A stretch of DNA of 25,492 nt from a virus. Both the position numbers and the translations under genes were made by a program. The DNA lies in IMG/VR virus record IMGVR_UViG_3300000553_000250, positions 1-25,492 of that record, one strand, 5' to 3'. Shown one piece after another: positions 4,818-24,298 of the stretch (position 1 is the first letter of the stretch; every line of letters starts with the position of its first letter). Below the pieces are notes generated by a model. That model saw only the letters and a list, made by a program, of their open reading frames with translations. It was not told the origin of the DNA and did not search any database.

Positions 4818-4845
4818 AATATAACACGATTTTAGGGGTTGTCAA
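4818..4845 (-). promoter_or_regulatory. Sigma70-type promoter with extended -10
   Basis: Minus strand: TTGACA (4840-4845), 16-nt spacer, TATATT (4818-4823) preceded by TGT. It overlaps the last codons of the kinase gene and drives the metallopeptidase-like gene. Confidence 0.8.
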
Positions 4846-5302
4846 GCATTATTATCTCGTCAAACCCCTCAGAAAGTTGTGGAATTTCAAGGGCTTCTAT
4901 CATTCCCTGTAAAATATTTTGAGGAATGTCTTTGCCAACCCGTGACTTTAAACGCCGTTCCAACTCAGGCGCATCTGGCGTAGGAAAAAATACCGCTACC
5001 TTGAGCCATTCGTCGTTAAATTGTCCCAGCTTGTACTTGCGGCCTTTAGCCATAGTGTTGGTCTGATCCCATACCAAATCCTTGCCTAACTTGATAGCTG
5101 TGTTGACCTGTGCCTTGCAGAAATCCATAGCATTGCCGATCTCACGGGAGAAGACATCGCTATAGGTCTTGCCTTGCTTGGCAGCAACCGTATCAATATA
5201 AGCATCGCTAGATGCAATGATCACATCTTCAAACTTCTGGTTTGCAACCCAAGTTGACTTGCCGCTACCTGGCACACCAATTAACATATAAACCTTGGTC
5301 AT
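4832..5302 (-). CDS. Polynucleotide kinase-like P-loop kinase
   Basis: A 156-aa AAA_33 / T4 Pnk-type kinase. The Walker A motif GVPGSGKST is at 9-17. A DQTNT segment near 100-104 and an RRLKSR lid segment near 135-140 match small phage 5'-OH polynucleotide kinases. It probably phosphorylates RNA or DNA 5' ends in end repair. T4 Pnkp fuses this domain to an HAD phosphatase; here the phosphatase is the separate gene at 5528-5968 in the same operon. Its ATG overlaps the upstream stop by 4 nt (ATGA), indicating translational coupling. Confidence 0.85.
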   Translation of the reverse strand: MTKVYMLIGVPGSGKSTWVANQKFEDVIIASSDAYIDTVAAKQGKTYSDVFSREIGNAMDFCKAQVNTAIKLGKDLVWDQTNTMAKGRKYKLGQFNDEWLKVAVFFPTPDAPELERRLKSRVGKDIPQNILQGMIEALEIPQLSEGFDEIIMLDNP

Positions 5303-5527: not shown

Positions 5528-5968
5528 TCAGAAATTACCTTCGGCAACTTGTAAAACACGAACGCCTTCTGCTCTGATCGCCTGCACCACTTGCTCTCTA
5601 TCGTCGAACCATAAAAACGGTGGTCCCCAATCCTTACGGATTTGTTCAAGCAATTCTACCTTGACGATGCTATCCTTCCTGTAATCTTTTTCCGCTCGCA
5701 TGTATAACGCATTGAAGTCAATACCATGCTGATGCAACCATGTTTCAGTAACGCCCCGTGTTTCCTCACCACGCCCACTGCACAAGATGATACGGTCTCC
5801 ACGAGCAAATAACATACCCAACAGTTCAACAATATCTACATGAACCGTATCATTAGCCATGCCAGCGTTCCAAGCAGCCCAGTTCTTTGGCTTGCTCGCA
5901 ACCCAATGCTTGCGATGTTCAGTGTTGGCAAGGGTACCATCAATGTCCACGACTATTACCTTACTCAT
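5528..5968 (-). CDS. HAD phosphatase, T4 Pnkp C-terminal type
   Basis: A 146-aa HAD-superfamily phosphatase. From the chosen ATG at 5968, motif I is DIDGT at 8-12 (nucleophile Asp8, acid/base Asp10). CSGRGEETR is motif II with the conserved Ser and the Arg patch, a Lys in YRKDS supplies motif III, and WFDDR supplies motif IV. This is the pattern of the 3'-phosphatase domain of T4 polynucleotide kinase/phosphatase. The start was chosen because ATGA overlaps the stop of the 52-aa gene. The kinase partner follows in the same operon. Confidence 0.85.
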   Translation of the reverse strand: MSKVIVVDIDGTLANTEHRKHWVASKPKNWAAWNAGMANDTVHVDIVELLGMLFARGDRIILCSGRGEETRGVTETWLHQHGIDFNALYMRAEKDYRKDSIVKVELLEQIRKDWGPPFLWFDDREQVVQAIRAEGVRVLQVAEGNF

Positions 5969-6123
5969 TTCAACCAATCCTTATGATAGTCAACGAGAGC
6001 CTTAATCATGTCTTGACTAAGTTCACCGTTGGATAGCAAACCTTCCATATATGAGTCATAAACAAGGTTTTTTCTGTCACAATAAAGTGACACCAAAAAG
6101 CGTAATTTATCCATGTCATACAT
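5965..6123 (-). CDS. Hypothetical protein, 52 aa, first gene of the end-repair operon
   Basis: The frame is open from 6174, but the promoter -35/-10 boxes occupy 6147-6174. The real start is therefore the ATG at 6123 (MYDMDKLRFL), with AAGGAG upstream. The product is a small helical soluble protein, ending VDYHKDWLK. I recognise no family. It leads the operon 52-aa protein, HAD phosphatase, 75-aa protein, kinase, all joined by 1-4 nt junctions. Confidence 0.72.
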   Translation of the reverse strand: MYDMDKLRFLVSLYCDRKNLVYDSYMEGLLSNGELSQDMIKALVDYHKDWLK

Positions 6124-9189: not shown

Positions 9190-9915
9190 ATGCGCAGCAG
9201 AGAATTTATCACAGAGTCACGATTGCTCCTTGAGGGCGGAAATATGTTTAAGGATGCTGAAGATTTTGATCAACAGTATGCTACACACATTATTAAAATT
9301 GTAAACGATGCACTTGCTCCAACAAATATATCAGTAACGCCTATTGGTAGTGGCGCAACACCAACGCCAGGAAAGATAAGCGGCGATTTTGATGTTATGG
9401 CAGATGAAGGCGCAGTTCAATCGTATTTCAAAGTAAAAGATGCTAAAGAAGCTCGTCGTGCGCTGCGTGATTATCTAACACAAAAAGGTTTTGAGACTGC
9501 GCAAAGTGGCATCAATGTACATATGTTAGTTCCGCTACCAAATGGTAAAAAAGCACAGACTGATATTATGGTTACACCACACGCAGGTGAGATTAGCAAA
9601 TTTCACAAACATAATATTCCACTTGGCAGTAAGTTTAAAGGAACGCATAAAGCAATCCTAATGAGTGTGCTAGCTAAGACAAAAGGAATGATGTGGAGTC
9701 CATGGAATGGGTTGTTTAATCGTACACCAGATGGCAAGCGTGGTGACCTTATAAGCAATAATATTGATGTAGTTGCTCGCACTTTACTTGGCTCACATGC
9801 AATTGGCGGTGACCTTGGAAGTGTTGAAAGTATTCTTGCAAAACTTCCACAACAAAAAATAGATGAATTGATGACGCTGCTTGATGCTGATCCAAATTGG
9901 AAAGCTATAACATGA
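9190..9915 (+). CDS. Nucleotidyltransferase-fold protein with capsid-targeting-like N-terminus
   Basis: A 241-aa protein. The N-terminus MRSREFITESRLLLEGG resembles T4 capsid targeting sequences (MKTYQEFIAEA-type), with ITE-S and LLE-G fitting the gp21 protease pattern (I/L)-x-E. The main domain has GSGATPTP near 54-61, then GDFDVMAD (Asp-x-Asp) near 65-72, and AQTDIMVT near 117-124 with a third acidic residue, the layout of a nucleotidyltransferase active site. It could be an internal head protein injected with DNA that modifies a host target. Both the fold and the packaging are inferred. It overlaps the next gene by 4 nt. Confidence 0.7.
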   Translation: MRSREFITESRLLLEGGNMFKDAEDFDQQYATHIIKIVNDALAPTNISVTPIGSGATPTPGKISGDFDVMADEGAVQSYFKVKDAKEARRALRDYLTQKGFETAQSGINVHMLVPLPNGKKAQTDIMVTPHAGEISKFHKHNIPLGSKFKGTHKAILMSVLAKTKGMMWSPWNGLFNRTPDGKRGDLISNNIDVVARTLLGSHAIGGDLGSVESILAKLPQQKIDELMTLLDADPNWKAIT

Positions 9916-11264
9916 GAGCATCAGAATTTCTTATTGAGGCAAAAGGCGTTTTTGGTCGCAAAGAAGGCGATCCATATATGAACGATAATGGCGCAACCGC
10001 TAGGTTCATAGGCGTTCAAATGTATCCAGATACTAAACCTAACAATGGTTATAAAGATTGGGACACTGCCACAATCGCAATTGACCGCATTGAAAAAAGT
10101 ATGGGTAAACAAATTCAATGGGTAAATCGCCAGACTCCACAAACAAAAGCATTTGCTATAGCTACACTGCATGGCGATGATGGTGAACTAATTTTATGGG
10201 GCCGCTATTATAAACTAGTACCAACAAATACTGTTAGTAGTTGGAACAACAATGAATTACCAAGCGGATGGGTGTTTAATAGCAAGACTGCAAAGAAAGC
10301 AAGAAGTGGATTAACGCCACAAGATTTAATTCGTAGTGAAATGAAATTTACTGGAACTGATAATATCATTGATGCAATTGCGGCAAACGGTGCGCCAGAA
10401 GAAATAATTAATGGATTGCGCATGGCTGCTCTTGGACAAATGCCAATCTTTAGAAACAGTGCAGACAAACTAGAAAGTATCCGCGATCATCTTGGTGAAA
10501 TTATTACGCCTATTGCGTTAATGGCTGGATTGATTAGTGATTCAAATTCTAACAATGCTAAGAACGAATTGCTAAAGACAGATTGGGATAATTGTACAGT
10601 TCATTGGCCTCAAAATAAAAACAATAATTTAGTAGACAGTGAATTTACTGCGGCGGGTGGCGGAGTTATAGGCATCAGCAACAAAGGCAACAAAGGCGCA
10701 ATGGCAAGTGTTGCTAATATATTCCAAGCTATGCAAAAAGCAAGCGATACTTTAAGAAGAACGCACCAAAAAGCAGTTGATGTTATTGAAACAATTCAGC
10801 AAAATAATGCCAAAGAAGGTCCGATTAAACTTGCCGAAGACCTCGGTATTATTGATGAGTATCTTGGCAGAGAAATTCGTGATAATATAAAAGACGGAAC
10901 AGATGATCCAGAAGCATTAAGCGACAATGCTAAAAAACTTTTTGTAAAGTATGGCAGTGTTGGAACTAGTGCTGGTTACAAGATTGGATTAGTGTTGCTA
11001 GCAAACTGTGCTAAAGAAGTAGCAGCGAAACTTAATAAAGATAAAGAATTTCAAGAAAGCTGCATGTCTTTCTTAAACCAAGCAAGTATCTTGCAAGTAT
11101 ATACAGATGCTAAAGTAATTGGAAATGATGTTCACATAACAAAGTTTATGTCAACTTATCCGCCAAGATTTACTGGCGGCATAAAATTAGATGCTGGTAA
11201 AAATTATATGAGTACAATCGTCAAAGGTAAATTTTCATTTGACATAGGAAAAGGGCAGGATTAA
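9912..11264 (+). CDS. Large late protein with capsid-targeting-like N-terminus
   Basis: A 450-aa protein. I start at the ATG at 9912 (MRASEFLIEAKG), which overlaps the upstream TGA, not the in-frame ATG at 9897. The N-terminus again matches the T4 capsid-targeting pattern with a predicted cut after LIE, before Ala. The remainder is a soluble alpha/beta protein with no recognised catalytic motif; a helical region (about 265-300) includes ASDTLRRTHQKAVDVIETIQ. Coupled translation with the nucleotidyltransferase-like gene suggests a pair packaged in the head or acting together. It ends at a bidirectional terminator. Confidence 0.72.
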   Translation: MRASEFLIEAKGVFGRKEGDPYMNDNGATARFIGVQMYPDTKPNNGYKDWDTATIAIDRIEKSMGKQIQWVNRQTPQTKAFAIATLHGDDGELILWGRYYKLVPTNTVSSWNNNELPSGWVFNSKTAKKARSGLTPQDLIRSEMKFTGTDNIIDAIAANGAPEEIINGLRMAALGQMPIFRNSADKLESIRDHLGEIITPIALMAGLISDSNSNNAKNELLKTDWDNCTVHWPQNKNNNLVDSEFTAAGGGVIGISNKGNKGAMASVANIFQAMQKASDTLRRTHQKAVDVIETIQQNNAKEGPIKLAEDLGIIDEYLGREIRDNIKDGTDDPEALSDNAKKLFVKYGSVGTSAGYKIGLVLLANCAKEVAAKLNKDKEFQESCMSFLNQASILQVYTDAKVIGNDVHITKFMSTYPPRFTGGIKLDAGKNYMSTIVKGKFSFDIGKGQD

Positions 11265-12474: not shown

Positions 12475-12753
12475 ATGGACTTTTTAAAATTAGTTGGTGA
12501 AGTTGGATTCCCTATTGCTGCCGCCTGTGCTGGCGGCTATTTTGTTTTTTTAACCCTAAAATTTATTCTTGCTGGCGTTACAAGTTCTGTGAATGGCATT
12601 AAAGGTATCATTATGGCACTTGATAACCGTGTAAAGACGATGAACCACGATGTTATTAGAATTGATACACTTATGAGTAATGCATTAGGTGTGCGTCCCG
12701 ACCTTGACCGTATTGCTCGTGCAGACGGTAAAAATGATGCTCGCAGAGATTAA
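12475..12753 (+). CDS. YvrJ/BhlA-like small membrane protein, copy 1
   Basis: A 92-aa protein with an N-terminal membrane span in VGFPIAAACAGGYFVFLTLKFI (about 10-31) and an amphipathic helical C-terminal region (ALDNRVKTMNHDVIRIDTL). The E/KxGFPI start of the span resembles the YvrJ and BhlA/UviB holin-like families. It is a paralogue of the gene at 14275-14646, which shares the GFPI-A-A-GYF-F core and the following D-R---D-IR pattern. GGAAG precedes the ATG. A role in membrane permeabilisation is possible but not shown. Confidence 0.65.
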   Translation: MDFLKLVGEVGFPIAAACAGGYFVFLTLKFILAGVTSSVNGIKGIIMALDNRVKTMNHDVIRIDTLMSNALGVRPDLDRIARADGKNDARRD

Positions 12754-13157: not shown

Positions 13158-13253
13158 ATGAGTATGATTCTTAGTAGTCTAATTGTCATACAACTGATTA
13201 TAAGTACTGCTATTATAGGATGGATTTTACATGGACTTTACAAGGATGACTGA
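13158..13253 (+). CDS. 31-aa membrane peptide
   Basis: The frame encodes MSMILSSLIVIQLIISTAII and GWILHGLYKDD: one long hydrophobic span with a polar tail. It has the same AAGGAAAATAAAATG leader as the 29-aa gene. The end overlaps the DUF4337-like gene start by 23 nt. Confidence 0.55.
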   Translation: MSMILSSLIVIQLIISTAIIGWILHGLYKDD

Positions 13254-13848
13254 CATGGTTTTAAAAAATAAAGATGGCAAAGTACTGAGTCGCAGCGAAG
13301 GTGAAGCAGTTCTTAAAGATAAAGCAAGTGTTACGATTACGATTTTTGCTGCATTTTTGGCAATTTGTTCTTGGTTAGGCGGACAAGTTAGCGGTAAGAT
13401 TATGGCTAATAATATTCAACTTGGAGATGTATGGTCTTTCTACCAAGCAAAAAGTATTAAACAGAATATGTACCAACTTAACCTTGATGATTTAAAAATT
13501 CAAATTTCTGAAACTAATGATGCTAATATTAAGAAATCTCTTGAATCTCGCATAGAGAATTACCAAAAATATATTGATGTTCTTGAAAGTGATCCAAAAA
13601 CTGGCGAAGGTAAAAAAGAAATTCTTGCTAAAGGCCGTGCGTTGGAGGCAGAGCGTGATAGTGCCAAGAAGCGTAGCCCATATTTTGGTATCGCCGCTAC
13701 AGTACTTCAAATAGCTATCGTATTAAGCACAACAGCAATACTGGCAGTTAGCTTGGCATTATGGTATAGTAGCATTGGTGTTGGAATTATCGGCATTATT
13801 CTTTTAGCAGATGGTGTTTGGTATTTCTTGCCCCTGCCATGGTTATAA
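13231..13848 (+). CDS. DUF4337-like membrane protein
   Basis: A 205-aa protein: a charged N-terminus, one span at about 32-50 (VTITIFAAFLAICSWLGG), the segment WSFYQAKSIKQ at about 68-78 typical of DUF4337, a helical extramembrane domain (about 80-148), then two closely spaced spans (about 150-200) ending in PLPWL. DUF4337 proteins are bacterial membrane proteins of unknown function. The first ATG is 13231 with AGGA about 10 nt upstream; ATGs at 13246 and 13255 are alternatives. Finding one in a phage-like setting is unusual. Confidence 0.72.
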   Translation: MDFTRMTDMVLKNKDGKVLSRSEGEAVLKDKASVTITIFAAFLAICSWLGGQVSGKIMANNIQLGDVWSFYQAKSIKQNMYQLNLDDLKIQISETNDANIKKSLESRIENYQKYIDVLESDPKTGEGKKEILAKGRALEAERDSAKKRSPYFGIAATVLQIAIVLSTTAILAVSLALWYSSIGVGIIGIILLADGVWYFLPLPWL

Positions 13849-14113: not shown

Positions 14114-14275
14114 GTGGAAAATGTACAGTATCCTTATCGTGTTGAAGAACACCGCCATGTAAATGGTGACCGATATTTTACTGTGTATTTCCATGGAAGA
14201 TTAATAATAATATTACGAAATAAAAAAACAGCAGACGAATACATAGAATTAAACAAGAAATATAAAGAGAAATAA
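14114..14275 (+). CDS. Hypothetical protein, 53 aa, GTG start
   Basis: The frame from GTG 14114 encodes (M)ENVQYPYRVEEHRHVNGDR, a beta-rich central part (YFTVYFHGRLIIIL) and a basic helical tail. The stop TAA shares its last base with the ATG of the next gene (TAATG), which supports translation of this frame. A competing ATG at 14109 opens only 17 codons. It has no signal peptide or full membrane span, and the Shine-Dalgarno is weak. The function is unknown. Confidence 0.55.
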   Translation: MENVQYPYRVEEHRHVNGDRYFTVYFHGRLIIILRNKKTADEYIELNKKYKEK

Positions 14276-14646
14276 TGGAATTGGGATTAGCAGACGCAAT
14301 TAACAAATATGGTTTTCCAATTGTTGCTGCGGCTGGAATGGGATATTTTATATTTTTTACCTGGCAATGGGCTACAACAGAAGTAAAACCAGTGTTAAGT
14401 GAAGCTAATACGGTGTTGATTGCTCTCATTGACCGTATTCGTATGTTAGATAACGATCTTATCCGTCTTAATCAAAAACTAAACATTGTGCTAATGTTGC
14501 GCGGCAAAGAGATTGAAAGCCAGCGCCATCTTGATGATGCCAAAGCTGCTGTTGCTGCACAAAAAGTAGAACTTGAAGCAGAAAAAACGCTAAAGAAAGC
14601 AGCTAAAGAAATCAATAAAAACGAAGCCGCTGGCGGTAATAGTTAA
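14275..14646 (+). CDS. YvrJ/BhlA-like small membrane protein, copy 2
   Basis: A 123-aa paralogue of the 12475 gene: KYGFPIVAAAGMGYFIFFTW (about 11-30) as membrane span, then the helical IALIDRIRMLDNDLIRLNQKL region, then an extra Ala/Lys/Glu-rich coiled-coil tail (about 75-118) missing from copy 1. The topology suits a holin-like or scaffold protein with a cytoplasmic coiled coil. Its start is coupled to the 53-aa gene. It meets the convergent HNH gene tail to tail with a 4-nt overlap. Confidence 0.66.
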   Translation: MELGLADAINKYGFPIVAAAGMGYFIFFTWQWATTEVKPVLSEANTVLIALIDRIRMLDNDLIRLNQKLNIVLMLRGKEIESQRHLDDAKAAVAAQKVELEAEKTLKKAAKEINKNEAAGGNS

Positions 14647-15170
14647 TTACTTAGAATTGCTTCTTTTTTAATTAAAAAAACAGAAGTATTATTTTGTCTT
14701 GCTGCTTCATTCAATCCTTTATATTCTACACCACGATAGATTACAGTTTTAAGAAGCGGATGCTTTAATCTTTTTTCTTCCGTGCAAGGTTGAAGTTTTC
14801 CTTTATTGGGAGAAACCTTTCCATATCTTGGATTTTTCTCACCAACCATTTTTCTTTTTTCCACCCATTCTGCGGATTGTTTTCGCCCTTTTCCTTGACC
14901 TTTTTTAGATTCACTAATTTTTCTTTTTGTTTCTTCGCTTAATGGTGGTCTTTTTACACCTCTACGAGCAGCATACATTATTTCCATTCTTTCTTCTTCT
15001 GTAATCAAACCAAGCAATCCTCTATATGCAACAAGGTCTTGCCACCTTCCATGCACTTCATACAAAATTTTGTGTGCTTCTGCGTGTTCTTCTATGGTTA
15101 GTTCTACGAGATTCGATGGGTCATCAGTTCCGCCCATATGTCTTGGAATAATATGATGTTTATGTTTCAT
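14643..15170 (-). CDS. HNH homing endonuclease with NUMOD3 and NUMOD1-like modules
   Basis: I start at ATG 15170 (MKHKHHIIPRHMGG), not at the frame's upstream limit 15317, which lies inside the cyclase gene. The 175-aa protein has HH at 5-6, Asn20 and His29 (an HNH core: HHIIPRHMGGTDDPSNLVEL), a NUMOD3 segment (LSEETKRKISESKKGQGKG, about 77-95) and a helix-turn-helix-like NUMOD1 tail (YRGVEYKGLNEAARQNNTS). It is a free-standing mobile gene. A late-type octamer lies exactly 5 nt before the ATG. It sits right behind the cyclase gene stop. Confidence 0.85.
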   Translation of the reverse strand: MKHKHHIIPRHMGGTDDPSNLVELTIEEHAEAHKILYEVHGRWQDLVAYRGLLGLITEEERMEIMYAARRGVKRPPLSEETKRKISESKKGQGKGRKQSAEWVEKRKMVGEKNPRYGKVSPNKGKLQPCTEEKRLKHPLLKTVIYRGVEYKGLNEAARQNNTSVFLIKKEAILSN

Positions 15171-15175
15171 ATTAT

Positions 15176-15183
15176 TATTTATG
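15176..15183 (-). promoter_or_regulatory. T4-like late promoter, leaderless spacing
   Basis: CATAAATA on the minus strand, then exactly 5 nt (ATAAT), then the HNH ATG at 15170. No Shine-Dalgarno is present. Confidence 0.6.
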
Positions 15184-15198
15184 ATTTGTTCTATAAAC

Positions 15199-17250
15199 CT
15201 ATTTTGAAGTTGCTCTAAAAACACCATCCCAACCTTCGCCTGGTAGATTTTCTGCCATCTCTGTACAGCGTTCAATCCACATATCATAATAGCCATCCAT
15301 TTGACCATCAAACTCACCTTTTAACTGCTTGCATGCATCAATAGCAGTTTTAAAGTGTTGTGAGCGATAATCATCCATCATACTAAGATGCCCACTTTTT
15401 GCTGCTAGGTATTCTGCGGCTGAACCAACATCATATATCTGTAGCACAGTGTGAATATTCACACCTTCTTTTTTACCCTTAACTGCAATGCAATCTAGTG
15501 GCAGAGTAAAGTACTCGTCCTTGACATATTCATTAGTCTTATCACCAATAACCATAGCAACATGATATGGTTTACTTTGTCCTTCTAAGCGTGATGCCAG
15601 ATTAACGCCATCACCAAGACAAGTATAATCAAAACGCTGACTAGAACCCATGTTGCCCACCACCACAGTAGCAGTGTTAATACCAAGCCCCATACCGAAA
15701 GGTGGAACACCTTCGGCAGCAACTTCTCTATTAAACGCATCTAAACTTCCTAACATTTGTAATGCTGTTTTCACAGCGTTTTTTGCATGGTCTGCATCAT
15801 CAAGTGGTGCGTTCCAAAATGCCATTTGTGCATCACCAATATACTTGTCAAGAGTGCCCTCGTTTTCTAATATCTTTGCTGTCATCGCTGTCATATAGCG
15901 ATTCATTATTTTGGTAAGACCTTGAACATCACTACCATAATGCTCAGAAATTGAAGTAAAGCCCCTAACATCGGTAAACATAATTGACAATTCACGAGAC
16001 TCTCCACCAAGCGTTAATAATTCAGGATTCTTTTGTAGTTTCTCAACCATTGCTGGTGAAAGATAAGTTCCAAATTGTTTCTTTATTTGTTGTTTTTGTA
16101 AGAACTCACTAACAAATTTAACTCCATAAGCATGCAATGCCACTAGTATAATTGTGACAGTAAATGCAGTAGCGTCAAACAAATAAAGGTTGCTACTAAA
16201 TTCGTACATGCTGCCACCAATACCAGCGAGAACAAGTACAACGACAGTTGATAATCCGACATAAGTCCACCTTGTTAAAAATAATAATAATAAACTACCA
16301 ATGATAAGAGCAGCAAGTTCTGCGCCTTCTGCATAATCTGGTCTAGAAATGTTAACCTTGTTTGCCAGTGTTGCAATAATTTTTGCTTGAATATCTTGTG
16401 GATATACAGCACCGATAGCAGTTGGAACAGGGTTAGCAATACCAGCCGCACTGGTGCCAACAATAACAACAGCGCCATCAAAGTTTTGTGGCATATTCAT
16501 AAGACTTACTTGCTTATGCTGTTGACTTAAATCAATCCATACACGACCAAGTTGATCAGTGGTGAATATAGACTTGCCCATGCCCATCTTATCAATACCA
16601 ATTTCACTTAACTTGACCTTAAAGTTCTTTTCTTGCATCAAGACACGCAGCGTCTCAATACCAATAGTAGGATAAAGTTTGCCGCCACTGCCAACAAGAA
16701 GTGGAATACGACGATTCACACCATCTATTTCAGGATATACATTTGTAGTTCCGACACCGATAGCGGCGTTTTCTAGTTCTGGAATGTTGGCGATTACCCC
16801 AGGATAATTGTAAATCCTATCAATAAAATTACTGTTGACAATGGCAGCACCGTTAGGGCGAGGCGTATTTTTACTCACGCTGCTTGGAATATTTGAAAGA
16901 ATGGTTGGGTGTTGCTTAAGAGTATCTGCTAGAACTGCATCACCGCCTTGACGGTCTGCCTCTGGCATCAACACTGTCCATACAACTAGACTTGCTCCAC
17001 GAGCATAGATATCTTTAATAATATCCGCATATATTTGTCTATTAAACGGCCACTGACCATACTTGTCAAGTGCTGCTTCATCAATATTGACTGTATAAAT
17101 TGGATTATCAGTTGGCGCTTTGTTGGTGATTAGCGTGTCAAAGTATCGTAACTTAATACTTTCAACAAAGTTGGGTGATGAAACTTTGATAGCAACTAAT
17201 ATTGCCAGCGTGATGAGTGCAGTCCATGGAGATAGCAGAATTTTTTTCAT
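15199..17250 (-). CDS. CHASE2-domain class III adenylate cyclase
   Basis: A 683-aa membrane enzyme. An N-terminal span (about 8-24) leads to a periplasmic CHASE2 sensor (about 30-300, with YTVNIDEAALDKYGQWPF and GAVYPQDIQAKIIATL), then three spans (about 310-378), a short linker and a class III cyclase domain (about 415-605). Metal-binding Asp427 (FTDVRGF) and Asp473 (KYIGDA), substrate residues Lys469 and Thr543, and Asn550 and Arg554 (NLASRLEG) are all present. The Lys/Thr pair is the class IIIb adenylate-cyclase signature. It should make cAMP from ATP in response to a periplasmic signal. Late-type octamer 5 nt before the ATG; terminator upstream. Confidence 0.9.
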   Translation of the reverse strand: MKKILLSPWTALITLAILVAIKVSSPNFVESIKLRYFDTLITNKAPTDNPIYTVNIDEAALDKYGQWPFNRQIYADIIKDIYARGASLVVWTVLMPEADRQGGDAVLADTLKQHPTILSNIPSSVSKNTPRPNGAAIVNSNFIDRIYNYPGVIANIPELENAAIGVGTTNVYPEIDGVNRRIPLLVGSGGKLYPTIGIETLRVLMQEKNFKVKLSEIGIDKMGMGKSIFTTDQLGRVWIDLSQQHKQVSLMNMPQNFDGAVVIVGTSAAGIANPVPTAIGAVYPQDIQAKIIATLANKVNISRPDYAEGAELAALIIGSLLLLFLTRWTYVGLSTVVVLVLAGIGGSMYEFSSNLYLFDATAFTVTIILVALHAYGVKFVSEFLQKQQIKKQFGTYLSPAMVEKLQKNPELLTLGGESRELSIMFTDVRGFTSISEHYGSDVQGLTKIMNRYMTAMTAKILENEGTLDKYIGDAQMAFWNAPLDDADHAKNAVKTALQMLGSLDAFNREVAAEGVPPFGMGLGINTATVVVGNMGSSQRFDYTCLGDGVNLASRLEGQSKPYHVAMVIGDKTNEYVKDEYFTLPLDCIAVKGKKEGVNIHTVLQIYDVGSAAEYLAAKSGHLSMMDDYRSQHFKTAIDACKQLKGEFDGQMDGYYDMWIERCTEMAENLPGEGWDGVFRATSK

Positions 17251-17305: not shown

Positions 17306-19276
17306 TTATGCCTGTTCTAAGTTTAGTAACTCAGTCATATTAGCATTTAAATTAGAAGTACTAATGCCAGCCTTAATGAGTTTGGCTTTCTTTTCCAAAC
17401 GCTTCTCACAATCATGCAAACTTTCATCTAGATTATCTGCATGAGTAGTCAGAGAAACTGGTTTTAGTGCGATCTCAACATCTGCTGTATCATACCCATC
17501 TTTTGCTCGCTTGCACAAGCTATGAATTACTGCCTTAGAAACAATCCATGCCATTTCCTCAGTAGCAATATCTTTTGCTGCTTCACGAATATCAGCAACA
17601 GTTCCTTCATCCTCATTAAGGTAAGGACCAACCATTGCATCAACTGCATAATTTACAGCATCATACATACAGTTAATATAAAGAGCAGTCTCAGTATATT
17701 GTGCCGCACGATGCTTTAACTGGTCAGCACTGCAACTTTCAAGATCAATCTCATTTCTGATAAACTCAATTGGCGGAAATGATTCTTGAATATCAGCAGC
17801 AGCCCCAATGCCACCAAAGAGAGGAGATTTTTTCTTAGGCGGAGAATGAGTAGCGCCTTTGCCAGTTGGCGGGTTACGGGTGCCATTTGTGCGACCATTG
17901 CTGCTGCGAACTGCAGCACTGCCGCGCATTTGCGTCATCAACTTATCAAGCAACTCTTGTGCTTTGTTTTGCAAATCATTTGCACTCAAGTTATTTGGAG
18001 CATAACTCTTGATTTTATCCTTGAACCATTGTGGCATATTTGCACGAATTTCGGGTGCAAAAGTAAGCAACTTAACTTCGGTCTTATGCTCATCATTGAT
18101 CATGATCTTCTTACGATGTGAGTCAGGCATGATTTCAAAGTCATCTGGAAGTTCTACAAAAATACGAAAGTATTTGTAGTTATATAGAATGTTCAACAAA
18201 CCTGCTGTGCCACGCCATACATTGTTATTAGTGAAATCATAGATTTCATTCTTCCAAACAAGGCCACTGAATGTGCTTTGACGAGAAGTTGGATTGCTAT
18301 AAATGCTCATGCTAAGATCATTTTTCGCAATAGGCTTGCCATCGTCGTCTAGTTCAGTTGTATTAGTATTAACAGGACCGTCCCATACATAAACGATCTT
18401 AACGCCATTTTCAAGCGCAACAATTTCTTTCTTAATTTTGTCTGGTTGTGACTCACACAGGTTGTCAATTCGTTCTTCAATGCTTACAAAACGAATGCTA
18501 TTCTTGTGAGCAAAACCAATACCAGTAAAGAAGCGCATTTCAATGCGCGGGTCAAGACGATAGAAACGAGCATATGCAGTGTTGACCAACCAGCCTCGTG
18601 CTTCCTCTTGCTGTGGGTCATATGGACGCTCTGCGGTATTTTGCTTGATGTTATTACCACACAACACGATAGCAGTCCAATCTTCATTGGTGTCCCAAGG
18701 AATCGTGTCAAGACCAGTAATATCCACAATGTCTTTATACTTTGATTTGCTCTGTGCATCGGTATCAAAGAAATCATACCGAACAAATTCTTCAACACCA
18801 GTCTTTTCATTTACTTGCTTCAAAAGCAAAACAAGTGATACCACCTTGTTTTTGCAAGTAATCCAAATCATACCTTTTTGATTGACTGCAAGTGCAGAAA
18901 TTTTAGCACCAATACCAAAGTTGTGCATTAGACTTTGCATTTTTTCAATGCTACTAGCTAAATCAACCGCCAAGCGAAGTTGATGAGCAGTCATTCCACG
19001 ACCGTTATTCCAGTAGGTAAGTTTTTTATTGCCATATGCATTATCTGATACACCACCTCGTGCACCAGAACCATAATAATTGAGATTATTGAGTGGATAT
19101 TCAAGGATGCCAAAAATTGCTGGATCAGTTTCCATTATATAAATTTTAGGAGATTCTGCATTTTGACTTGCTTCAATTGCATTTTGAAGTAGTTCTCGCA
19201 CCATCATATCACTTGGTGCCTGTGAAATAGTACGGGTAATATGACCCGTTGGATTGCCGAACGCGAGTGTACTCAT
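17306..19276 (-). CDS. GHKL (Hsp90-like) ATPase, 656 aa
   Basis: The N-terminal domain carries the GHKL ATP-binding motifs: RELLQNAIEAS at 26-36 (N box), NNGRGM at 89-94 (G1 box; Asp is replaced by Asn in the usual DxGxG) and FGIGAKISAL at 119-128 (G2 box). It continues with a transducer-like region (about 200-420), a low-complexity hinge rich in Ser, Arg, Gly and Pro (about 445-485), and a helical C-terminal domain. It is not topoisomerase or MutL by domain order, and may be a MORC/Hsp90-like remodelling ATPase. It has a sigma70-type promoter, a 5' leader hairpin and its own terminator. Confidence 0.78.
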   Translation of the reverse strand: MSTLAFGNPTGHITRTISQAPSDMMVRELLQNAIEASQNAESPKIYIMETDPAIFGILEYPLNNLNYYGSGARGGVSDNAYGNKKLTYWNNGRGMTAHQLRLAVDLASSIEKMQSLMHNFGIGAKISALAVNQKGMIWITCKNKVVSLVLLLKQVNEKTGVEEFVRYDFFDTDAQSKSKYKDIVDITGLDTIPWDTNEDWTAIVLCGNNIKQNTAERPYDPQQEEARGWLVNTAYARFYRLDPRIEMRFFTGIGFAHKNSIRFVSIEERIDNLCESQPDKIKKEIVALENGVKIVYVWDGPVNTNTTELDDDGKPIAKNDLSMSIYSNPTSRQSTFSGLVWKNEIYDFTNNNVWRGTAGLLNILYNYKYFRIFVELPDDFEIMPDSHRKKIMINDEHKTEVKLLTFAPEIRANMPQWFKDKIKSYAPNNLSANDLQNKAQELLDKLMTQMRGSAAVRSSNGRTNGTRNPPTGKGATHSPPKKKSPLFGGIGAAADIQESFPPIEFIRNEIDLESCSADQLKHRAAQYTETALYINCMYDAVNYAVDAMVGPYLNEDEGTVADIREAAKDIATEEMAWIVSKAVIHSLCKRAKDGYDTADVEIALKPVSLTTHADNLDESLHDCEKRLEKKAKLIKAGISTSNLNANMTELLNLEQA

Positions 19277-20644: not shown

Positions 20645-20654
20645 TATCTCTTAC

Positions 20655-20888
20655 TTAACCTTGACTTACAAAGTCATTTAGAATCTTGGCTTTCTCAACA
20701 ATCTGTTCCATTGTATAAATTGGTGGGAGGTCTGGAATAGTAGGAACAGGTTTATGTCCTTCATGTGCCAATGAAACTTGATTGCTCCAATCAGTACGGA
20801 TCATATCACATTTTGTATGGTATTCTGTGTTAAGTGCATCTTGTGCCATCTTTAACAATTCAAGACGAAGCATATATGGATTTGACAT
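20655..20888 (-). CDS. Conserved-looking small phage protein, 77 aa
   Basis: I start at ATG 20888 (MSNPYMLRLELLKMAQDALN), which has a strong AAAGGAG 8 nt upstream; the frame extends to 20966 without a ribosome site. The protein is helical, with a Pro-rich middle (KPVPTIPDLPPIYT) and a second helix at the C-terminus. Short proteins starting MSNP-x-x-LR are common in marine T4-type phages as far as I recall, with unknown function. It is divergent from the curli-like operon. Confidence 0.72.
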   Translation of the reverse strand: MSNPYMLRLELLKMAQDALNTEYHTKCDMIRTDWSNQVSLAHEGHKPVPTIPDLPPIYTMEQIVEKAKILNDFVSQG

Positions 20889-20922
20889 TATAATCTCCTT
20901 TGTGTGTTTGTGTGTAATGTCT

Positions 20923-20938
20923 GTATACTGTTGTATAC
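20923..20938. repeat. Paired GTATAC palindromes
   Basis: GTATAC-N4-GTATAC lies in the leader of the 77-aa gene, downstream of TATATT and AATAAGTA boxes that could be its -10 or late element. It could be an operator or a leader stem; only the symmetry is observed. Confidence 0.4.
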
Positions 20939-20984
20939 CAATATACTTATTTTTAACTTCATACACAATAAAATAATTTCAACT

Positions 20985-20992
20985 GTTAAATA
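20985..20992 (+). promoter_or_regulatory. T4-like late promoter of the curli-like operon
   Basis: GTTAAATA, predicted +1 near 20998, 18-nt leader with GGAG 5 nt before the ATG at 21016. Confidence 0.55.
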
Positions 20993-21015
20993 TGTTAGGA
21001 ATTTTTGGAGCAACT

Positions 21016-21495
21016 ATGCGTAAATTTGGCATTTTTATGACAGTTTTAATGTTTTCATCTGCTGTTAATGCATCGCAGCTTGAATTTCAATTCAAGAGTC
21101 CACAGTTTAGTGGAAACGGTTATGGTACATATTCTCAGCAAATCGAAAACACTGAGTATACACGCCAACAAGCAATAGAAGCGTCAAAACAAGCAGCAGC
21201 CGCTGCTGCAGAATCTGCTGCAAAAAACAGTATTTTAAACCAATTTGTTAACAATTTACAAAGTCGTATCTATGCACAGGTTAGTCAAAACATAGCTAAC
21301 CAGTTGTTTAATGGCACTGCTGGGTCAGCTAGTACAACTTGCGCAACAGCAGCGGCTGGATGCACAGTTCAATTTCCAGATGGCAGCAATGTTACATTTT
21401 GGAATGATGGAACTAATGTTAGTTTACAAATAATTGGTGGGTCAAGTGATAGTTCAACAACGGTAACTATACCAATCGGAGCGTTCAAATTATGA
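21016..21495 (+). CDS. csgF: CsgF-like curli assembly factor
   Basis: I start at ATG 21016, which has GGAG upstream; the ATG at 20992 lies within the promoter box. The 159-aa protein has a signal peptide cut after VNA (residue 19). The mature N-terminus SQLEFQFKSPQFSGNGYGTY matches the CsgF pattern F-F-NP-FGGN that plugs into the CsgG pore. A helix (LNQFVNNLQSRIYAQVSQNI) and a C-terminal beta part (VQFPDGSNVTFWNDGTNVSLQI) follow as in CsgF. An Ala-rich insertion (QAAAAAAESAAK) makes it slightly longer than usual. CsgF couples the CsgG pore to amyloid nucleation at the cell surface. The stop overlaps csgG by 4 nt. Confidence 0.85.
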   Translation: MRKFGIFMTVLMFSSAVNASQLEFQFKSPQFSGNGYGTYSQQIENTEYTRQQAIEASKQAAAAAAESAAKNSILNQFVNNLQSRIYAQVSQNIANQLFNGTAGSASTTCATAAAGCTVQFPDGSNVTFWNDGTNVSLQIIGGSSDSSTTVTIPIGAFKL

Positions 21496-22343
21496 TTAAA
21501 AAACTTATTATATTAACCACAACGGTTCTTGCATTATCGGCATGCCAGACTGCTAAGGAAGTGGTAGTTAATGAAAGACCAACCATTGTTCAGCCCGAAC
21601 TGGTAAATGAATTTAAAAGCGTTCGTGCACCAGATGGTCCTCCGTTTGTAGTAGCACTTTATAACTTTAGTGACAAAACAGGTCAACGCAAACCAAACGA
21701 TGCTTATGCTAGTTTAAGTAGTGCAGTCACACAAGGCGCAGAAGTTCTTGTTATCAAGGCACTAAAAGAAGTTGGCAATGGCAAATGGTTTCGTGTTGTA
21801 GAACGAGTTGGAATTGATGATATTGTAAAAGAACGCCAAATGATTCGTCAAACTCGTGAAACATTTGAAGGAACAAGTGCAAAGCCACTAGACCCTATGT
21901 TATTTGCTGGCATATTAATTGAAGGCGGCGTAATAGGATATGACACCAACAAACAAAGCGGTGGTGTTGGTGCTGCCTTTCTTGGAATAGGCGCTGATAC
22001 ACAATATAGCCAAGATGTAGTAACTGTTTCTATGCGAGCGGTAAGCGTTCAAACTGGCGAAGTTCTTATGGAAGTAAGCACTACAAAGAACATATTAAGC
22101 ACAGGCAGCAATGTTACATTTTTTAAATTCTATGATTTAGGAACCCAACATGTAGAAAGTGAAGCAGGGTATACGATCAATGAACCTGTCACTTATGCTG
22201 TTAGAGTTGCAATAGAAGCGGCAGTAGTAGAACTAATCAAAGAAGGTGTGCGTAAAAAATATTGGAATTACGCTTCAAGACCTGATTCAACTAAATCTTT
22301 ATCAACAAAACCCGTTATACAAAATGGTGGAAGTAAGCAATAA
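21492..22343 (+). CDS. csgG: CsgG-like curli secretion channel lipoprotein
   Basis: A 283-aa lipoprotein: the lipobox LSAC places the lipid-modified Cys at residue 18. The mature protein shows CsgG blocks, including VVALYNFSDKTGQRKPND, WFRVVERVGIDDIVKERQMI, DPMLFAGILIEGGVIGYDTN, DVVTVSMRAVSVQTGEVLMEV and the C-terminal AVRVAIEAAVVELI helix. The two membrane hairpin regions (about 145-165 and 195-220) are retained. CsgG forms a nonameric outer-membrane pore that exports curli subunits. It is translationally coupled to csgF. CsgG/CsgF genes have been reported in some marine T4-type phages, as I recall. Confidence 0.93.
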   Translation: MIKKLIILTTTVLALSACQTAKEVVVNERPTIVQPELVNEFKSVRAPDGPPFVVALYNFSDKTGQRKPNDAYASLSSAVTQGAEVLVIKALKEVGNGKWFRVVERVGIDDIVKERQMIRQTRETFEGTSAKPLDPMLFAGILIEGGVIGYDTNKQSGGVGAAFLGIGADTQYSQDVVTVSMRAVSVQTGEVLMEVSTTKNILSTGSNVTFFKFYDLGTQHVESEAGYTINEPVTYAVRVAIEAAVVELIKEGVRKKYWNYASRPDSTKSLSTKPVIQNGGSKQ

Positions 22344-22366
22344 TATATTGTGATAAGGATGGAATT

Positions 22367-23095
22367 ATGAGTATAAAAAAAAGTTTAGCAATTGCAGCAA
22401 TGCTTTTGTACACGGGTATTGCAAACGCCAATGAATTATATATTGATCAAGTAGGTAACAGCGGAACTGTTAATTTAAATCAAACTGGTATAAACAATAC
22501 TATTGGAAGTTCTCCTGTGCCATTTAATATTACTGGTGATGGTAGCACTATCACTATGACACAAAGCGGCACAAGTAATACTATGACAGGCGATATTACT
22601 GGTTCAGCAGTAGAATTTACTTCTATTGTGTCAGGAAGTTTCAACACGCAAACTAATTATGGTACTGGCATGGATAATAGTACTATAACACAAACTATTA
22701 CAGGCGACACAAACACTGTTACAATAGGAAGTAGCGGTGCTGGATTAGCTGCTAATGGTATAAAAAGCACAGGCAGCGGACCAACTAGCACAATTGGTAT
22801 GGGAACTAATGTCACTGTGGCATTGGCTATCACTGGCAATACTAACAATGTATTAAGTATTCCACAAAGCAACAATGGTATACAAACCATTACTTTGAAT
22901 GGCAGTAATAACGATGTTACTGCGGTTCAAACTGGTGGCGGTGTTGGTAGTGGTCAAGGCCATGATTTAACATTGACAGTAACTGGTGGCTATAATACAT
23001 ATGATATTAACCAAAGTGGTTCAACTAAACAAATTGCTAGTGTTAGTACAATTGGAAGTAATAATACGGTTACTATTCGTCAAAATGGTAACTAA
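22367..23095 (+). CDS. Curlin-repeat amyloid-like exported protein
   Basis: A 242-aa protein with a signal peptide (cut after ANA, about residue 21). The mature part is a chain of about 8-10 degenerate curlin-type repeats with Gln/Asn/Gly spacing, for example YIDQVGNSGTVNLNQTGINN, ITMTQSGTSNTM, ITQTITGDTNTVTI, LTLTVTGGYNTYDINQSG and VSTIGSNNTVTIRQNGN. It is almost free of Lys, Arg and aromatic residues, as in CsgA/CsgB. It is the likely cargo of the CsgG/CsgF pore and may form beta-helical fibres on the infected cell or virion. AAGGATGG precedes the ATG. Confidence 0.85.
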   Translation: MSIKKSLAIAAMLLYTGIANANELYIDQVGNSGTVNLNQTGINNTIGSSPVPFNITGDGSTITMTQSGTSNTMTGDITGSAVEFTSIVSGSFNTQTNYGTGMDNSTITQTITGDTNTVTIGSSGAGLAANGIKSTGSGPTSTIGMGTNVTVALAITGNTNNVLSIPQSNNGIQTITLNGSNNDVTAVQTGGGVGSGQGHDLTLTVTGGYNTYDINQSGSTKQIASVSTIGSNNTVTIRQNGN

Positions 23096-23100
23096 AATCA

Positions 23101-24219
23101 ATGAAGAAGATACTGGCATTTCTCATGGTGATGGTATCATCCCAATGTGCAAGTGCTGCAGTGGGGACCATTACTGAACAAACTGGTCCCACTTCTATTA
23201 CCAGAGACAAATCCAGCTTTGATACACAAAAAGGCGCTGGAGTTGAAATGGCAGATACTATCAAAACTGCTAGATCGCGTGTTGGTATTCAATTTGAAGA
23301 TAATAGCACAGTTCAGATTACCGAAGATAGCAAACTTGAAATAGATGAGTTTGTTTATGATCCAGAAAAAAATGTAGGTAAAATGGCTATCAAGGTTGCG
23401 CTTGGGACTGTTCGCATGGCTAGCGGCAATATTGCTCATAACAGTGCAGACAATGTTAATATTCAAACGCCAACCGCTACTATTGCGGTTCGTGGTACTG
23501 ATTTTAGCATGAGCGTAGATGAAATTGGACGCAGTGTTATTGTGTTGTTGCCAAGTTGTCCGCCTTATATAAAAGATGAAGCATTATGTAAAGTAGGCGA
23601 AATATCAGTTATAACAAATAATGGTAAGGTCACACTTAATAAAGCATATCAAGCAACAGTTGTTAATAGTAGAAATTCTCCGCCGTCTACGCCAAAGATT
23701 GTTTCTATTGGTCTTGAAAATATCAATAATATGATTTTAATTGCTGTCCCAAAAGAAATTAAAAAAGAGTACAGCAACGACAATCAACTTAAGATTGATC
23801 AAGTTAATGTAGATTTTCTTGATAAAGATTTTTTAAAGTTTGATGAATTAAAGAAAAATGCGCTAGCTGATAATGCGTTATCAACTTATGGTGCTACTCG
23901 TTTAGATATTAACTTGTTGGCAGTAAGTTTTTTGTTTAATGTGCTATCTGTGGATGCTGACACAAGTGGATTAGGTGGAAATCTTCTTGCACAAGCGATG
24001 GACACTGTTTTACCAGATTTTAAACCTATTGCTGGTCTAAGTGCAGTAATTACGCCATATGATGTAACCATTACTCGTCAAGCAAGCGATCAACTTGCTC
24101 AAATAACAGTGCAGCGTTTTACTAACGCCACACTGACTATTTCACAAGATAACATTAAAACCATTACAAAAGTTAATGGCGGCAACACCGTTGCGTTTAA
24201 TATAAAACAAAGTCCGTAA
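23101..24219 (+). CDS. FecR-domain exported protein
   Basis: A 372-aa protein with signal peptide MKKILAFLMVMVSSQCASA (cut about residue 19). Residues about 20-150 are a FecR domain: GTITEQTGPTSITRD, GAGVEMADTIKTARSRVGIQF, DNSTVQITEDSKLEIDEFVYDP, KVALGTVRMASGNI and the hallmark VNIQTPTATIAVRGTDFSM. The C-terminal part (200-372) is beta-rich and unrecognised. Signal-peptide FecR proteins occur beside CHASE2 cyclases and surface structures in many Proteobacteria. It starts 5 nt after the curlin-gene stop, so it is probably in the same operon. It could bind carbohydrate or curlin at the surface. Confidence 0.86.
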   Translation: MKKILAFLMVMVSSQCASAAVGTITEQTGPTSITRDKSSFDTQKGAGVEMADTIKTARSRVGIQFEDNSTVQITEDSKLEIDEFVYDPEKNVGKMAIKVALGTVRMASGNIAHNSADNVNIQTPTATIAVRGTDFSMSVDEIGRSVIVLLPSCPPYIKDEALCKVGEISVITNNGKVTLNKAYQATVVNSRNSPPSTPKIVSIGLENINNMILIAVPKEIKKEYSNDNQLKIDQVNVDFLDKDFLKFDELKKNALADNALSTYGATRLDINLLAVSFLFNVLSVDADTSGLGGNLLAQAMDTVLPDFKPIAGLSAVITPYDVTITRQASDQLAQITVQRFTNATLTISQDNIKTITKVNGGNTVAFNIKQSP

Positions 24220-24222
24220 TTT

Positions 24223-24298
24223 TGGTTGGGGAGCCAGGGATCGAACCTGGAATCTCCTGAGTCAAAGTCAGGCGTATTGCCAATTATACCACTCCCCA
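24223..24298 (-). tRNA. tRNA-Gln (UUG)
   Basis: On the minus strand acceptor TGGGGAG pairs with CTCCCCA, then discriminator A and encoded CCA. The anticodon stem CCTGA/TCAGG closes loop CTTTGAC (anticodon TTG), and the T arm is CCAGG-TTCGATC-CCTGG. Length is 76 nt. It would suit the Gln-rich late proteins of this window (8532 gene, curlin protein). Confidence 0.96.

Follow-up and report, generated by a model that had tools for sequence, protein, structure and literature searches.

Introduction

The closest described relatives of the locus studied here are the curli (type VIII secretion) genes of pelagiphages and methylophages. The genes csgF and csgG were reported in pelagimyophages by Zaragoza-Solas et al. 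(2020, PMC7029224) and then in the Methylophilales phage Melnitz by Buchholz et al. (2022, PMC9004378), who argued for a pinholin or secretin since csgA and csgB seemed absent. In podo- and myo-type pelagiphages, Wittmers et al. (2022, PMC9599517) described the order CsgF-CsgG-CsgA/B-FecR, in many cases accompanied by a second curlin and an adenylate cyclase; they reported an alphaproteobacterial origin, expression of the phage module in metatranscriptomes, and a histidine kinase before CsgF in podoviruses.

Here we analysed a stretch of 25,492 nucleotides (the window), which comprises positions 1-25,492 of the 28,774-base IMG/VR virus record IMGVR_UViG_3300000553_000250. It carries genes for CsgF, the CsgG pore, a curlin-repeat protein and a FecR-domain protein, and since relatives were described in the three papers above, this cassette is a further example of the published phage curli kind. 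The linkage of curlin cargo and FecR, which a preliminary description of the sequence had regarded as possibly new, has been reported before (PMC9599517). The apparent exchange and inversion of the cassette beside a tRNA-Gln gene is new relative to the published phage curli. We consider it reasonably probable that the locus encodes a curli-type (type VIII-like) export system for an adhesive fibre, with FecR docked on the fibre and possibly reporting to an adenylate cyclase.

A curli-type operon in the window

We found that the CsgF, CsgG, curlin-repeat and FecR genes are consecutive on the plus strand, as the preliminary description had proposed, and that each product scores above its curated Pfam cut-off in a profile hidden Markov model (HMM) search. 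The Sec signals that it had noted were also recognised, as Sec-type N-termini read from the sequence in CsgF, the curlin and FecR, and as a lipobox in CsgG (LSAC, Cys18). The features of the locus are listed below.

20985..20992, plus strand: late-promoter-like element GTTAAATA, about 24 bases 5′ of the likely CsgF start ATG 21016
21016..21495 (annotated from 20992), plus strand: CsgF (PF10614, 35.9 bits, cut-off 25.8, E=9.5e-9; phrog_35372, E=1.1e-30)
21492..22343, plus strand: CsgG outer-membrane pore lipoprotein (PF03783, 173.2 bits, cut-off 20.8, E=5.9e-51)
22367..23095, plus strand: curlin-repeat cargo, Cur1 (PF07012, 23.1 bits, cut-off 20.7, E=6.9e-5, two stretches)
23101..24219, plus strand: exported FecR-domain protein (PF04773, 48.3 bits, cut-off 24, E=1.4e-12)
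20654..24222: apparently exchanged and inverted curli cassette, without close homology to the related loci L052 and L043, which match on both sides
24223..24298, minus strand: tRNA-Gln (TTG) bounding the cassette (ARAGORN, Rfam)
15199..17250, minus strand: CHASE2 sensor-adenylate cyclase, a probable signalling partner outside the apparently exchanged cassette (PF05226, E=7.9e-35; PF00211, E=2.2e-18)

CsgF carries its Sec signal in the N-terminal sequence FQFKSPQFSGNGYG, and ATG 21016 (GGAG upstream) is a likelier start than ATG 20992. An FQF...NG stretch is kept at the CsgF N-terminus, which we take to resemble the peptide by which E. coli CsgF inserts in the pore; comparison of CsgF with PDB sequences gave chance matches only. 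Residues 5-266 of CsgG align with the solved E. coli CsgG structures (E=8e-51). Cur1 has a Sec signal and ends in VTIRQNGN, and 35 of 44 homologues match PF07012. Its AlphaFold2 (AF2) model consists of strand-loop-strand repeats (mean predicted local distance difference test score, pLDDT, 82.8), with no match to PDB folds below E=0.001. CsgE, which the preliminary description had not seen, was found neither on the contig nor in six related records (0/7). As the CsgE gate of E. coli increases yield and is not essential (PMC7029224), we did not count it as defining curli/type VIII membership. With CsgG, CsgF and a curlin-repeat protein in place, the locus belongs by sequence to the curli/type VIII secretion family, and a CsgG-dependent surface amyloid fibre is predicted.

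About 115 viral loci with CsgG were gathered and annotated by profiles built in this analysis. CsgF, curlin and FecR accompany CsgG in all 90 phage loci with full flanks (90/90), and where 9 kb downstream could be followed, the cyclase was present in 55/57 loci and a second curlin in 52/57. The median ratio of nonsynonymous to synonymous substitution rates (dN/dS) was 0.11 for CsgF, 0.13 for CsgG, 0.13 for the curlin, 0.11 for FecR and 0.14 for the cyclase, values that are approximate, with high dS in many pairs. These ratios indicate that all five gene families, the curlin included, are under purifying selection, and the complete modules together with the constrained curlin are evidence against a bare lysis pore. 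The virus record, the completeness of the module and the selection on it support the proposal that a phage carries the pore, its chaperone and a curlin cargo as a linked set.

Compared with the pelagiphage module (PMC9599517, PMC7029224), the window shares the phage-borne order CsgF-CsgG-curlin-FecR, an adenylate cyclase and the lack of CsgE. It differs in that the cyclase lies on the opposite strand outside the operon, not downstream of FecR, that no second curlin stands beside FecR, and that the cassette is inverted and bounded by tRNA-Gln. A cyclase after FecR is frequent, not universal, in the pelagiphage module and hence not defining. The cultured phages Melnitz (MZ577097) and HTVC008M (a Pelagibacter phage, NC_020484) have the same order, with 40-54% identity in CsgG and 42-45% in FecR over the aligned part; unlike in the window, their second curlin and cyclase are contiguous with FecR, and HTVC008M gp018 is a PA14-curlin fusion. 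Bacterial curli loci (E. coli csgBAC/csgDEFG; alphaproteobacterial csgFG-curlin) have CsgG, CsgF and a curlin-repeat cargo in common with the window. CsgF, CsgG and curlin are all present in three alphaproteobacterial loci from 289 genomes (L202-L204), which, unlike the phage module, have no FecR or CHASE2-cyclase within ~10 kb; E. coli curli, unlike the window, includes CsgE.

The element upstream of CsgF had been described as a late-type octamer. This reading stands on comparative grounds and is not reflected in the composition of the window, where TATAAATA-like octamers of the T4 late type occur at chance level (62 versus 62.35 expected). Of 106 distinct phage loci, 71 have TAAATA 5′ of CsgF (14.2 expected) and 18 have the exact TATAAATA there (1.65 expected); the expectations come from mononucleotide shuffles and the loci are partly related, hence these counts are supportive only. 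We accepted a late-type promoter because TAAATA is enriched 5′ of CsgF in relatives. This signal and the published metatranscriptome detection (PMC9599517) bear on the timing, and a working fibre may be expressed late in infection. An inverted repeat, ACCCTTGTAA...TTACAAGGGT around CTAAATAATA, was seen just 5′ of CsgF in L042, L043 and L052 (~9505-9545 in L052) and is a possible operator.

Apparent exchange and inversion of the cassette at tRNA-Gln

The reverse-complemented contig is collinear with L052. Amino-acid identity to L052 outside the cassette was 96% for an epimerase, 83% for a glycosyltransferase, 84% for RimK and 91% for the cyclase, versus 41% for CsgF, 52% for CsgG and 43% for FecR inside it. 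The window curlin had no significant BLASTP match to that of L052 and 30% identity to that of L043, and the cassettes of the relatives are 62-98% identical among themselves. In all, identity to relatives is 83-96% for the flanking proteins and 30-54% for those of the cassette. Nucleotide homology to the relatives breaks off at 24223, the final base of tRNA-Gln, and restarts at 20653, and the weak matches within the cassette run in the opposite orientation. A tRNA-Gln adjoins the cassette in L041-L044, L051 and L052 as well. Because the flanks are closely similar, the cassette is diverged, its matches are reversed and homology breaks at 24223 and 20653, the CsgF-to-FecR unit appears from these comparisons to have been replaced and inverted in a fixed tRNA-Gln slot with the resident cyclase left in place, unless the junctions at 20654 and 24222 are misassembled.

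The curlin-like tail of FecR

The window FecR has a Sec-type N-terminus and a single FecR domain at 52-146. The phage proteins run from a Sec-type N-terminus through one FecR domain and a helical linker to a C-terminal region of six strands (AF2 pLDDT 79.6), which in the window ends in the curlin-like strand FNIKQSP. Such a C-terminal motif, fixed after inspection of 29 of the 91 viral proteins, was found in 85 of 91 distinct viral FecR proteins versus 0/70 bacterial relatives and 8/552 other open reading frames (ORFs). When the full FecR profile was aligned with the curlin profile by hhalign, the C-termini were flush (P=0.0015, HH probability 16%). Since the protein is exported, lacks an internal transmembrane (TM) helix in the AF2 model and has a curlin-like C-terminal strand, it is not an anti-sigma regulator here and most likely docks on curlin. 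A likeness to the antifreeze-adhesin anchoring domain 5ix9 was too weak (Foldseek E=0.03; profile E=0.37) and was rejected. The curlin-like tail appears to be new for phage curli.

Adhesin domains on second curlins of relatives

The second curlins of related phages range from ~110 to 1450 residues. Among 57 of them we identified Curlin_rpt in 33, F5/8 type C (discoidin) in 8 and PA14 in 6, with the PA14 and discoidin domains N-terminal to the curlin repeats (positions checked in a subset). HTVC008M gp018, annotated as hypothetical, contains PA14 (27.7 bits, cut-off 24) and three curlin repeats, and Melnitz gp101 and gp103 are curlin-repeat proteins. A C(x)GC(x)VTQ cap terminates many second curlins and also the alphaproteobacterial curlin of L203. 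A keyword literature search found no paper linking PA14 with phage curli; in the excerpts of PMC9599517 and PMC7029224, neither PA14/discoidin heads nor a curlin tail on FecR was found, and the term PA14 is absent from PMC9599517. These heads appear to be new for the phage curli family.

The CHASE2-adenylate cyclase and its pairing with FecR

The cyclase at 15199-17250 had not been tied to curli in the preliminary description; in relatives it lies immediately 3′ of the operon. Residues D427, K469, D473, D547 and R554 are invariant in 19 phage copies, and Asn550, which is Ser in Melnitz-type copies, is retained in the window. We take these residues to be the metal-binding Asp pair, the adenine-specifying Lys/Asp and the transition-state Asn/Arg. 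By its residues the protein is a class III adenylate cyclase.

FecR genes adjoin CHASE2 genes in 25 of 69 bacterial loci of a biased sample, and in a less biased sample of 31 alphaproteobacteria, 9 of 35 CHASE2 genes lay within 5 kb of FecR (0.21 expected). In SAR11 (L130-L132, L137, L143-L147 and further loci of Pelagibacteraceae), FecR lies ~1.3 kb from a CHASE2-SpoIIE phosphatase, and the two look like a sensor pair of this kind in the host. A Burkholderia biofilm operon (BiofilmReg) likewise encodes FecR with a CHASE2-kinase (PMC5192318). These proteobacterial pairs resemble the phage pair in that an exported FecR is encoded with a CHASE2 inner-membrane sensor; in contrast to the phage proteins, the bacterial FecR proteins examined have no curlin-like C-terminus (0/70) and are encoded outside curli operons. 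Because bacterial FecR genes recurrently neighbour CHASE2 genes, FecR and CHASE2 seem to form an ancient sensor pair, which phages coupled to curli.

A GHKL-ATPase-like protein of 656 residues (17306-19276, minus strand) adjoins the cyclase; its HATPase_c match is below the cut-off and no kinase dimerisation domain was seen. It had no match in 50,697 phage records and one homologue among the gathered loci (L044, 47%), there too directly before the cyclase. An rIIA-like identity was considered and the evidence did not support it. Proteins of 105-171 residues 5′ of CsgF in eight loci (L017, L018, L023, L053, L065, L075, L084 and L097) resemble the C-terminal ~100-residue extension of the cyclase, without the catalytic domain.

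Proposed function and alternatives

As known for the family, the curlin-repeat protein would cross the inner membrane by Sec and then pass CsgG, the outer-membrane pore with CsgF, to assemble an adhesive, probably amyloid, surface fibre. Because second curlins of relatives display PA14 or discoidin domains, glycans on cells or particles are the most likely target of the fibre, which may hold infected and neighbouring cells together. FecR most likely docks on curlin through its C-terminal strand, and, as the gene pairing suggests, its FecR domain may signal the state of export or of the fibre to the cyclase through the periplasmic CHASE2 domain. The CsgF-to-FecR cassette appears to have been swapped and flipped beside tRNA-Gln in this genome, and the cyclase to have remained.

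Several points weigh against this proposal. The window curlin barely exceeds the Pfam cut-off, CsgE is lacking in the seven records, no second, adhesin-bearing curlin stands next to FecR in the window, and the match between the FecR tail and curlin is short, as its HH probability reflects. The identities to L052 differ between FecR (43%) and the cyclase (91%), and such different recent histories argue against a tightly co-adapted pair. No clumping was observed with Melnitz (PMC9004378).

In a stronger form, which we put forward only tentatively, the curlin-tailed FecR would read curlin export or fibre state and drive the CHASE2-cyclase in the infected cell, and cassettes with different adhesin heads, swapped at the fixed tRNA slot, would change the target of the fibre.

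A different role has been proposed for Melnitz from synteny with thyX/tmRNA: the pore of CsgG and CsgF, repurposed as a pinholin or gated secretin, would time lysis by envelope permeabilisation, and curlin would be incidental (PMC9004378). The lack of a CsgE gate is in keeping with this, and so are small one-TM proteins, found immediately 5′ of CsgF in 40 of 113 loci, of which Melnitz gp98 weakly matches a holin PHROG (E=1e-4). Their family (phrog_18771) was found in 56 of the 70 curli loci that span 15 kb or more, and has two members in the window.

12475..12753, plus strand: small one-TM protein, paralogue 1 (phrog_18771), a recurrent neighbour of the module
14275..14646, plus strand: small one-TM protein, paralogue 2 (phrog_18771), in relatives often immediately 5′ of CsgF

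However, the pinholin proposal was based on the absence of csgA/B, and this main premise falls with the curlin repeats in Melnitz gp101 and gp103. Moreover, curlin accompanies CsgG in every one of the 90 loci and is constrained as strongly as CsgG, and from family knowledge CsgG belongs in the outer membrane and pinholins in the inner membrane. We therefore regard the pinholin as improbable, although the holin-like small TM proteins beside CsgF may link the module to lysis. In the window, the two small TM genes flank a gene for a DUF4337 membrane protein (13231-13848, plus strand; PF14235, E=1.6e-41).

An option raised in PMC7029224 and PMC9599517 is that larger nutrients or cofactors are taken up by the infected cell through the pore, which curlin and FecR would tune. 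An ungated CsgG would be permeable, CsgE was not found, and the name FecR suggests iron. Uptake nevertheless leaves the constraint on curlin, the adhesin-domain fusions and the curlin-like tail of FecR unexplained, and the window FecR looks like an exported soluble protein, so that we consider this function more doubtful still.

Very unlikely, in our view, is the proposal, made by analogy in PMC9599517, that FecR regulates transcription of the operon in response to iron. The PF04773 match speaks for it, as does the fold of the FecR domain, which matches the cell-surface signalling domain of PupR (E=5.5e-4). Against it, a Pfam search found no anti-sigma N-terminal domain in the window FecR, which instead begins with a Sec signal and has no internal TM helix in its model, and its closest FecR relatives in bacteria are paired with CHASE2 proteins, either a cyclase or a SpoIIE phosphatase, as FecR is with a CHASE2-kinase in the Burkholderia operon (PMC5192318).

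Finally, a misassembly or bacterial DNA, hence a cassette that is not phage-borne, might be suspected from the lack of a Gp23 capsid gene or any recognised structural gene on the contig and from cassette junctions that differ from those in relatives, and is in our view the least likely reading, given that the IMG/VR virus record encodes a phage exonuclease, polynucleotide-kinase halves and homing endonucleases, that the contig is collinear with L044, whose 338-kb contig bears Gp23, and that the cultured phages HTVC008M and Melnitz carry the same module. The phage setting recognised in the preliminary description was also confirmed by homologous curli loci in viral contigs of 164 to 338 kb, three of which (that of L044 and contigs of 168 and 286 kb) encode a Gp23 capsid protein of the T4 type.

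The ten best "bacterial" FecR matches (L120-L129) and L180 contain the phage curli module. From this gene content we treated them as phage contigs binned into metagenome-assembled genomes (labelled Flavobacteriaceae, Rhodobacteraceae, Pirellulales, Sphingobacteriales, Synechococcus and Pelagibacter), not as bacterial sources. Also excluded as phage evidence was OR851715, a CsgG record labelled "Salmonella phage" (1.5 kb, low-coverage node, unverified), which is probably host csgG.

Elsewhere in the window, polynucleotide kinase seems to be divided between a kinase gene and a phosphatase gene (4832-5302 and 5528-5977, minus strand). Two adjacent proteins of unknown function (9190-9915 and 9897-11264, plus strand) have the N-terminus MR(S/A)xEF(I/L)xE in common, perhaps a targeting or prohead-type sequence. 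An HNH/NUMOD3 homing endonuclease ORF (14643-15317, minus strand) overlaps the cyclase gene, which lies on this strand too, at its 3′ end, and a second endonuclease-like ORF lies at 1505-2176.

Since 2020 the curli genes of phages have been puzzling, and the proposals range from sibling capture to a pinholin. The constrained curlin, the likely glycan-binding heads, one of them in a cultured phage, and the curlin tail of FecR favour an adhesive fibre tied to signalling. The apparently swapped and inverted cassette at tRNA-Gln indicates that the exported components can be transferred together, without the cyclase.

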